A DNA stretch of 41,759 nt from Tannerella sp. GTDB lineage: Bacteria; Bacteroidota; Bacteroidia; Bacteroidales; Tannerellaceae. The notes beneath the pieces were generated by a model, which saw nothing but the letters and a program-made list of their open reading frames with translations, searched no databases and was not told the origin of the DNA. Positions 14,307-30,893 of this stretch are shown here, one piece after another (positions within the stretch are counted from its first letter, which is position 1; each line of letters starts with the position of its first letter). A program made the position numbers and the translations under genes. The stretch covers positions 1 through 41,759 of the forward strand of contig JAIRSF010000059.1 of assembly GCA_031255595.1 (NCBI GenBank), written 5' to 3'.

Positions 14307-14360
14307 TGCCGTGGTTTTTTCATAATAGTATTAGATTTAAGGTTAACAAAATTGATTAGG

Positions 14361-14391
14361 GGTTGTCGTGAGACAGCCTTTAATTGTTTTT
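14361..14391 (+). terminator. Hairpin with GTGA tetraloop followed by T-rich tract
   Basis: ggttgtc-gtga-gacagcc then tttaattgttttt. Confidence 0.5.
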
Positions 14392-14480
14392 AGGAGGCTT
14401 TAAAAATTATACATGTATGCAACTTGACTACAATATGGTTCCCGCCCGACACGATAGATCATCCGCTAAGAAAGTAGTTT

Positions 14481-28184: not shown

Positions 28185-29237
28185 TCAGTTCGTACCGGAA
28201 GTCGGCGGCTCGGCCGGATAATTTCCCATACGGTAAAGCTTTCGGGTATCTAATTTGATTTTCAGGTTCGCATCCGGCAAAGGATCCGATATAGCGGATA
28301 TTTTATGTGAGTGAATAATACGTTCCTCTCTCTCCGGCTTTCCTACTAAAAATGAATAATCATCGTTACGTACCAACTCATACAAATAATACCCGTTATC
28401 TCCCTTTTTAAATTCTGCAAAAAACGAATAATACACCGGCTTGGCTTTGAACGTTATATAATGCCTGTATTTTTTTTGCATACCGGAACCTGACTCATAC
28501 TCAATCCGGATAAGGGTCGTATCGCTCCTATTTATCGTGCATACAATAACATCGCCCTCATAACATCCGTTATAAATAACAATGACCGAATCCAAAACAG
28601 ACATTGAATTTCTTTCGGATTTATACATCTTATTGACGATACGATTAAAAAACAGGTTGCTCTCATAAAGCATATTATTTTCCAATACCCTACTTTTTTT
28701 CGTTCCGGGAACAACCTTCATCCCGGATAACAGAATATCGTAATCCAATCTTGTTTTTTTAGGATTAACCTTCCCCGGTTCAGCCGTAAACAGGATCTTC
28801 AGGCTACGTTCATCTCCAAAGTTTATCTCCTTTTCAACCTCTTCACACTTGTATGATATTTTATGCTTAACCAGCCTGCTTTTCAGATTATAAATCGCCT
28901 TCTCATGCAGCTCATACATATTTGCAGGCGTGATCGTCACTTCCGGCAAATCCCACCGCATCTGACGAAACAGAACTACCTTGCCGTTAAGATTCAACAC
29001 GTTCCTTATTGTCAATTCGGTAGCAGTATAACCGTCCGACACAAACAGGAGCGTATCCGCGTCATTACCCTCAACGGCGAAAAATCCCGAATTGTCCGAA
29101 AATACAATTTCTCCCGTTTTCAGATTCTTGATCTCTACCCTCCTCAAAGGACTACCGTCAATGTCATAAACATGGCTTTGTATCCTCATTGCCGACATAC
29201 CCACACTGACCATCAAAAACAGAAATAACAGCTTCAT
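28185..29237 (-). CDS. Carboxypeptidase-like regulatory domain-containing secreted protein
   Basis: signal peptide followed by QSHVYDIDGSPLRRVEIKNLKTGEIVFSDNSGFFAVEGNDADTLLFVSDGY (CarboxypepD_reg-like). Confidence 0.75.
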   Translation of the reverse strand: MKLLFLFLMVSVGMSAMRIQSHVYDIDGSPLRRVEIKNLKTGEIVFSDNSGFFAVEGNDADTLLFVSDGYTATELTIRNVLNLNGKVVLFRQMRWDLPEVTITPANMYELHEKAIYNLKSRLVKHKISYKCEEVEKEINFGDERSLKILFTAEPGKVNPKKTRLDYDILLSGMKVVPGTKKSRVLENNMLYESNLFFNRIVNKMYKSERNSMSVLDSVIVIYNGCYEGDVIVCTINRSDTTLIRIEYESGSGMQKKYRHYITFKAKPVYYSFFAEFKKGDNGYYLYELVRNDDYSFLVGKPEREERIIHSHKISAISDPLPDANLKIKLDTRKLYRMGNYPAEPPTSGTN

Positions 29238-29346
29238 CGTTTATGATTTAATTTGTTCATAATTTTATGCGGAGTTAGGGATTAAACACATACTTTTGCA
29301 GGTGATCCATAATTCTACTACTTACCTGTTAACTCTCCACCCCCCC

Positions 29347-29381
29347 AAAAAAAAATCCCGGAACTCACGTTCGGGGATTTT
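29347..29381 (-). terminator. Rho-independent terminator with GUGA tetraloop
   Basis: minus strand AATCCCCGAAC-GTGA-GTTCCGGGATT followed by T tract; one internal mismatch. Confidence 0.75.
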
Positions 29382-29619
29382 CAGTAATGAATAATGAATA
29401 ACGTTTAGCATTATGCTCTAGCACCCGAGTAAAACTCGAGTTTACCGCATAGAAGCCCAAATTAACCACGCCATTCAGGCGTATAACCAATCGCCCTATC
29501 AGTGTGTGTGATCGAAAAAAAATCACTTCACACAACCGGCTTTCAGCATAAAAATTAGATTTTTACAAGGATAATGACACCACCATGCCAAACTTGATTA
29601 TCCTTCTTCATCTAACATC
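29347..29619 (-). ncRNA. Candidate structured small RNA (~270 nt) with its own promoter and terminator; class not identified
   Basis: minus-strand TTG-N19-TATCTTTG promoter, at least five local hairpins, Rho-independent terminator, no ORF. Confidence 0.6.
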
Positions 29620-29625
29620 TTTGCG

Positions 29626-29655
29626 CAAAGATAAGTATATTTTTCAAAACAGCAA
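29626..29655 (-). promoter_or_regulatory. Consensus -33/-7 promoter of the ncRNA candidate
   Basis: reverse complement reads TTG-ctgttttgaaaaatatact-TATCTTTG; spacer 19 nt. Confidence 0.7.
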
Positions 29656-29873: not shown

Positions 29874-30893
29874 TTACAATAAATTATGTTTTTTGCAATC
29901 GTTAATCGTTTCCTCCAACCCTTCTTTCAGATTATACCGCGGCACAAAACCAAGTTCCCGCCGGATAGGTTCCGTTTCACAAATCCAGTTACGTTGTTTA
30001 AGAATACAATATTTATCCGTATTAAGGGTCATGGCCCGGCCCGCCAGGTGACCGAACGCTTCGGAAAACAAGCAGGCCACGTAACACATCCAGACAGGTA
30101 TACGGAGGTTTATCACTATTTTTTTGCCCAGCAATTTCTTTATAAGCTGCGCAAAATCCGTATCTGTGTATACATCTCCGTCGGCCACAAAATAAGATAC
30201 ATTTTTGGCCTCTTTGTTTTCGAGGGCCATAAAAGCGGCAACGGCAAGATCTTTGACATATATAAATGTAAGCTGCTGCGATTTCAGGCCTACTTTCAGG
30301 TCAATCCCGGAGCGGATACTTTTTATTTCCATCAGATAATCCTTATCTCCAGGCCCATAAACGCCGGTAGGCAACAGTATGACATAGGGGAAATAAGTCT
30401 GGGATTTAACGAACAGTTCCGCTTCAAATTTACTTTTCCCATAAACGGAATCGGGATTCCGGTCATCATCTATACGGATCGGCCTGAATGAATATTCTTT
30501 TACCGGCCCGTAACTGCTAAGGCTACTCATCAACAGAAATTTGTCGGGCTTACAATCCGCAGCGGCAAGCGCTTCTATTAATAAATGTGTATGAAAAGCA
30601 TTGACCTGATAAAAATCGGACTTCCGAAGTGTTTTTGTGATACCGGCATTATGTATTACGTAACGCCATGCTCCAACGGAAGAAGCTATTTCGCGTAATT
30701 GTGCGACAAGTGCGTCTTTCGAATCATACCGCAGATAAACAAACTTAATCCTTTCATCCTGCAAATGTTCCCGGGAACTGTGCGGACGTATACCCGCCCA
30801 GACCTCATAACCCCGGCTCAGAGCTTCTTTTACAAGATACCCTCCGATAAAACCGCTTGCCCCGGTGATTAATATACGTTTTTGTTCTTCCAT
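29874..30893 (-). CDS. NAD(P)-dependent epimerase/dehydratase family protein (extended SDR)
   Basis: ILITGASGFIGGYLVKEAL Rossmann motif; YGKSKFEAE (YxxxK). Confidence 0.88.
   Translation of the reverse strand: MEEQKRILITGASGFIGGYLVKEALSRGYEVWAGIRPHSSREHLQDERIKFVYLRYDSKDALVAQLREIASSVGAWRYVIHNAGITKTLRKSDFYQVNAFHTHLLIEALAAADCKPDKFLLMSSLSSYGPVKEYSFRPIRIDDDRNPDSVYGKSKFEAELFVKSQTYFPYVILLPTGVYGPGDKDYLMEIKSIRSGIDLKVGLKSQQLTFIYVKDLAVAAFMALENKEAKNVSYFVADGDVYTDTDFAQLIKKLLGKKIVINLRIPVWMCYVACLFSEAFGHLAGRAMTLNTDKYCILKQRNWICETEPIRRELGFVPRYNLKEGLEETINDCKKHNLL

Follow-up and report, generated by a model that had tools for sequence, protein, structure and literature searches.

A structured RNA gene of Tannerella with conserved complementarity to an Mfa1-type fimbrial operon

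The RNA gene and its fold

The window, by which we mean the whole 41,759-nt stretch of Tannerella sp. DNA that was analysed, carries on its minus strand a predicted transcript of about 275 nt (29347..29620, start accurate to a few nucleotides), the extent of which rests on a covariance model match and on 18 homologous copies. Upstream of it lies an NAD-dependent epimerase gene (29874..30893, minus strand), its constant neighbor, and downstream lies a 350-aa gene without a Pfam match (28185-29237, minus strand), which separates the RNA from a decarboxylase operon in the window only. The promoter (29626..29655, minus strand) is made up of a TTG at -33 (29655-29653) and TAtcTTTG at -7 (29633-29626). 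It fits the TAnnTTTG/-33 consensus of the Bacteroides sigma-ABfr (PMC7366714) and is kept in the homologs. The other end is formed by an intrinsic terminator, GAAAAUCCCcGAAC-GUGA-GUUCcGGGAUUUUUUUUU (29347..29382, minus strand), which is helix 9 of the consensus fold. An earlier note on this DNA had proposed a TTG-N19-TAtcTTTG promoter, some 270 nt rich in hairpins and free of open reading frames, and a Rho-independent terminator with a GUGA loop; all three were found at the position and strand given there, the terminator at 29382-29347 on the minus strand, and the hairpin-bearing stretch in between holds no convincing open reading frame. One candidate for a small-protein gene, the ATGAAGAAG frame, was rejected as it is absent, shifted or shortened in several copies and the indels in the alignment do not come in threes. 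The stretch has a folding energy of -82.8 kcal/mol compared with -64.5 +/- 5.2 kcal/mol for dinucleotide shuffles (z -3.5; none of 200 shuffles as low). As far as sequence can tell, it is a free-standing structured RNA gene, its transcription being predicted.

The RNA falls outside the known classes, as had been suspected. No Rfam family reaches its cut-off, and cmscan down to E=10 returns unrelated fragments only. The guess that it may be 6S-like, for example Bacteroidales-1, did not survive: neither family turns up even at that threshold, and the Bacteroidales-1 RNA (RF01693) of the same genome sits at a separate locus, where it scores 164.5 bits (contig C199, 3712-3895). 6S-Flavo (RF01685) has no match in the window's genome, and the multi-branched fold is unlike that of 6S RNA, in which one long hairpin with a central bubble is expected. 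A relative of either family would share the size and the own promoter and terminator of this RNA, and we nevertheless regard such kinship as next to inconceivable. The Bacteroidales-1 RNA at C199 occurs in most of the genus. RNase P RNA was not found in the window's genome assembly, which is 77% complete, and the RNA does not contain what we take to be the RNase P core sequences. Elsewhere in the window, positions 14311-14393 on the plus strand match Rfam BTncRNA_FopS (RF04319) at 60.5 bits; the members of this family are paralogous sRNAs of Bacteroidetes.

The consensus fold is made up of a closing helix P1, which has three parts and joins both ends of the RNA, followed by P2, P3, P4 and the terminator. 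Across the alignment, 96.5% of the cells of its 63 pairs are paired, falling to 36-46% when partners are slid by 1-3 columns. The covariation that the earlier note had proposed to look for is present, with changes on both sides in 16 pairs compared with 7.1 +/- 1.8 in shuffled alignments (none of 500 shuffles as high). Nearly all of these double changes fall in P2, P3 and the inner P4 hairpin. P2 (GCUGA..GCC..GUGUG/CACAC..GGC..UUGGU, 29486..29547, minus strand) comprises helices 4 and 5 and contains six of them; the GUGUG/CACAC stem noticed earlier is conserved, and is the tip of this longer stem. P3, the covarying helix 6 (UACGCC/GGCGUG, 29467..29483, minus strand), contains the previously described ACGCC-UGAAU-GGCGU hairpin, which is conserved with compensatory changes. 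The same is true of the ACUCGAGU/ACUCGGGU stem, which forms the inner hairpin (29441-29423, minus strand) of P4 (UAUGC/GCAUA, 29412..29451, minus strand; helices 7 and 8). Two other proposed helices fared less well. AAAAAU-CUA-AUUUUU is not conserved as a helix, its AAUCUAA core being instead a conserved unpaired sequence, and the 5' hairpin GGAUAAU...UGGCA/UGUCA...AUUAUCC, while present in the window sequence, does not covary and has 76.8% of its cells paired, as in shuffles. GGAUAAU and GUUUGGCAU pair with the 3' end of the RNA (GUUAUUC and AUGCUAAAC) and so belong to P1, the 5' strand of which, GAUGAA-GGAUAA-GUUUGGCAU (29585..29612, minus strand), resembles the mRNA site described below. 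P1 displays one-sided changes and no double ones because its 3' strand never varies.

Distribution and neighbors

The earlier note had staked its RNA on conservation in relatives, and this was found: BLAST recovered 17 further copies, all within a single genus, for a total of 18 copies in 16 species. Weak BLAST matches at other loci (L017-L027) were rejected as homologs since they cover pieces of the terminator or promoter. A covariance model, R1, built from all 18 copies scores 304 bits across 29346-29625 of the window and, at E <= 4e-56, finds the full-length RNA in 16 of the 41 genomes (species) of the genus; a short match at 3e-7 comes next. Searching the family (125 genomes, 16 genera) placed the RNA in the window's genus only, and in the order (394 genomes) there were just short terminator-like matches beyond the window's own genome. 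No homologs were found in phage, plasmid or viral contigs.

The same epimerase lies upstream in 17 of the 18 copies, that is, in every copy with a long enough contig, and its identity to the window's copy drops to 52% among the carriers. In the epimerase tree a branch with 100/98 support splits the RNA-bearing genomes from those lacking the RNA, a distribution that fits a single gain or a single loss. The downstream side differs. Of the 17 other copies, 8 have the sodium-pump decarboxylase genes next on the same strand, and in the window these stand behind one inserted gene, an arrangement that could suggest that the RNA acts in cis, as a leader or attenuator of the gene behind it. We consider this very improbable, as the downstream content changes (ATPase-like, HTH and convergent genes, and the window's insertion) while the RNA and its complete terminator do not, and a riboswitch or cis leader, including one regulating oadG, was rejected on these grounds. 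As other copies have different downstream genes, the region behind the RNA is evidently often rearranged. The metagenome-assembled genome (MAG) from which the window comes also contains three syntenic ABC-epimerase-RNA copies (contigs C198, C200 and C256) with 85-90% epimerase identity; because these occur in a single assembly, it probably merges related species beyond what its 2.3% contamination figure indicates.

Complementarity to the fimbrial operon

The most conserved element of the RNA is a 35-nt 3' strand, GAGCAUAAUGCUAAACGUUAUUCAUUAUUCAUUAC (29384..29418, minus strand), which forms the 3' side of P1 and P4 and is 100% identical in all 18 copies. Other parts of the RNA are less uniform, with mean pairwise identities of 62% (5' part), 67% (middle) and 52% (around the P4 hairpin). 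Because the 5' partner strand varies, pairing within the RNA cannot explain this invariance, and therefore something else should read the 3' strand. BLAST over the relatives found fragments resembling it at other loci, several of which belong to an Mfa1-type fimbrial operon and are oriented so that its mRNA is complementary to the RNA. The order of this operon is DUF3575, DUF3868, fimbrillin, an Mfa2-like gene and a tip-like gene. Pfam identifies DUF3575, DUF3868, Fimbrillin_C and Mfa2, and the last large gene has weak FimA/Mfa2 matches in one copy.

The complementarity of about 30 nt lies at the DUF3868/fimbrillin junction and was scored over 200 nt around the DUF3868 stop codon at the DUF3868 loci of the genus. 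All eight RNA-bearing genomes with an assembled junction have the site, at about -26 to -43 kcal/mol (G022 -43.0, G002 -35.7, G001 -35.1, G028 -36.9, G035 -26.9, G006 -40.6, G013 -31.8 and G034 -34.9); it is present even in G034, where an assembly gap falls in the DUF3868 gene. Two further genomes, G015 (-32.8 kcal/mol) and G432 (-35.1 kcal/mol), carry the site with no RNA seen in assemblies that are 79% and 72% complete. The 17 DUF3868 homologs from other genomes lacking the RNA score -14.3 to -20.8 kcal/mol, the level of shuffled sequence, and have no site. In G022 the mRNA site reads GGTAATGAATAATGAATAACGGTTTGGCATTATAAC, as compared with CAGTAATGAATAATGAATAACG-TTTAGCATTATGC for the complement of the RNA. 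Seven of the 10 junction sites have a central U-U mismatch in common. The DUF3868 stop codon is inside or adjoining the site in six genomes, and the fimbrillin start follows about 140-220 nt past it, usually with no TAnnTTTG box between.

Downstream of the last operon gene, in its 3'UTR and ahead of a terminator-like hairpin, a second site complementary to the RNA is present in G035, G006, G034, G028 and G013, and in part in G015. The window's own genome has it on contig C26 as a bipartite site, GATTTTCAGTA and TAATGAATGATGGATAGCG, at -38.7 kcal/mol, with a core that departs from the perfect complement three times, each time as a G-U pair. This contig ends within the 3'UTR and has the same adjoining lipoprotein and transporter genes as G035. 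The 3'UTR site is the only one seen in this genome, the DUF3868 gene and its junction not being found in the fragmentary, incomplete assembly.

Several controls bear on the specificity of these matches. When 6,890 windows from both strands of the analysed stretch and of six fimbrial or control loci were scored, most of the top non-self duplexes fell on the fimbrial sites described above. A search of 41 genomes for the pattern ATGAATAACGN{0,2}TTTRG gave matches in all 16 RNA carriers and in G015 and G432, and nothing in the other 23. Besides RNA genes and junction sites it picks out four further places; the matches at G002:C102, G002:C174 and G005:C313 are probably coincidental. Plain ATTCATT heptads occur in many intergenic stretches, with 26 matches in G018, which lacks the RNA, none of them extending into ACGTTTAGC, and because they are so widespread heptads alone were not counted as sites. 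In G018, TTATTCATTATTCATTA heptad repeats are scattered over many contigs. At the contig end of G005:C289 (locus L146, 1-200), a small GTTTAGCA / ATGAATGATGAATGACGTTTAGCA repeat array is complementary to the RNA at -38.8 kcal/mol and is perhaps a different target or a sponge in this most diverged carrier.

The junction site is also more conserved than its surroundings (0.77 compared with 0.53 for the rest of the leader). Its transitions keep the pairing through G-U at eight distinct positions and break it at one, compared with a roughly even split under chance (one-sided binomial p ~0.02, shared ancestry ignored), and an insertion of 1-2 nt between the half-sites is tolerated. These details speak to whether the shared sequence might instead work as a DNA element, for example an operator or a site of recombination, with one copy at the RNA gene and two in the operon, the RNA itself acting in some other way. 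The loci do share the same 30 bp or so as double-stranded DNA, and since complementarity alone does not distinguish the strands, this reading gains some support. We think it unlikely: the copies all lie within predicted transcribed regions (the intercistronic junction, and the RNA 3' end and the 3'UTR, each ahead of a terminator) and not in promoters, the 8:1 transitions are of the kind that preserves RNA pairing, the tolerated insertion is bulge-like, and the same strand is used in the P1 of the RNA itself. Complementarity to the fimbrial operon is a likely reason for the invariance of the 3' strand.

The DUF3868 gene was not seen in 8 of the 16 RNA-bearing genomes, which are mostly incomplete MAGs, including, as the most telling case, G009 at 94% completeness. 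As no such gene is seen in half of the carriers, the RNA may well have other or further targets besides the fimbrial junction. It might also be that the RNA has a function of its own, perhaps in complex with a protein, to which the fimbrial mRNA is a sponge, a decoy or one partner among several. The large conserved P2-P4 domains and conserved loops, which are not obviously needed for an antisense role, and the presence of the RNA in genomes where the operon is unseen would suit this alternative. Conservation of the RNA peaks, however, precisely in the strand that matches the fimbrial mRNA, and we give the alternative a small share of the probability, if slightly more than the DNA element.

A proposed antisense regulator

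Taken together, the RNA is best explained as a free-standing, structured, trans-acting antisense RNA that controls the Mfa1-type fimbrial operon, a reading to which we assign a probability of roughly 80%. It is an independent unit with its own predicted promoter and terminator, and its target operon is on other contigs. In the free RNA the invariant 3' strand would be held in P1 by the target-like 5' end of the same molecule. The fimbrial mRNA, offering some 28-30 bp, would be the better partner and would displace the 5' strand of P1. The computed P1 duplex is worth -7 to -21 kcal/mol compared with -26 to -43 kcal/mol for the target duplex, and folding the RNA jointly with its target is favored by -19 to -34 kcal/mol, with P1 opened, so capture of the target by strand displacement should be energetically easy. 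The paired region would span the DUF3868 stop codon or start shortly after it, within the fimbrillin leader of about 140-220 nt, with the 3'UTR of the last operon gene, before the terminator, as the second place. Pairing at the junction would presumably alter fimbrillin output. Most likely, double-strand cleavage or decay at the junction would repress fimbrillin or uncouple it from the genes upstream. A more specific version, which we offer tentatively, is a strand-exchange riboregulator in which the 5' end mimics the fimbrial mRNA and keeps the antisense strand blocked until the mRNA itself takes over the pairing, while the two sites would tag either end of the fimbrillin-Mfa2-tip segment so that it is processed separately or differs in stability.

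In Staphylococcus aureus, RNAIII is long and structured and base-pairs with the mRNAs of surface proteins; it also codes for a peptide and relies on C-rich loops, neither of which was seen here. The likeness of our RNA to it and to similar large structured antisense RNAs is in the way of working only. Bacteroidales-1 and 6S-Flavo are likewise free-standing structured RNAs of Bacteroidetes, but the former lies at a separate locus and there is no homology. The trans-encoded sRNAs of B. thetaiotaomicron (PMC7366714) are alike in promoter type, intergenic position and predicted pairing with mRNAs encoded elsewhere. They share no Rfam family with the present RNA, which has a larger, multi-branched fold and about 30 nt of conserved complementarity at two places of one operon. 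A small RNA is reported to act on phase variation of P-fimbriae in uropathogenic Escherichia coli (PMC4546395), which makes small-RNA control of fimbrial output the shared trait; the phylum, the RNA and the fimbrial type are different, and in our case the predicted pairing is directly on the operon mRNA.

A literature search of incomplete coverage found no paper on an RNA regulator of Mfa1-type fimbriae, and to our knowledge few sRNA targets are known in Bacteroidota. The RNA of about 275 nt was previously uncatalogued, and its putative antisense role had not been foreseen by the earlier note. Because gene, fold and pairing site are all legible in the sequences of about ten species, the RNA provides a ready-made model for testing RNA control of Mfa1-type fimbriae, and it is also suited to asking how long structured antisense RNAs work in Bacteroidota.
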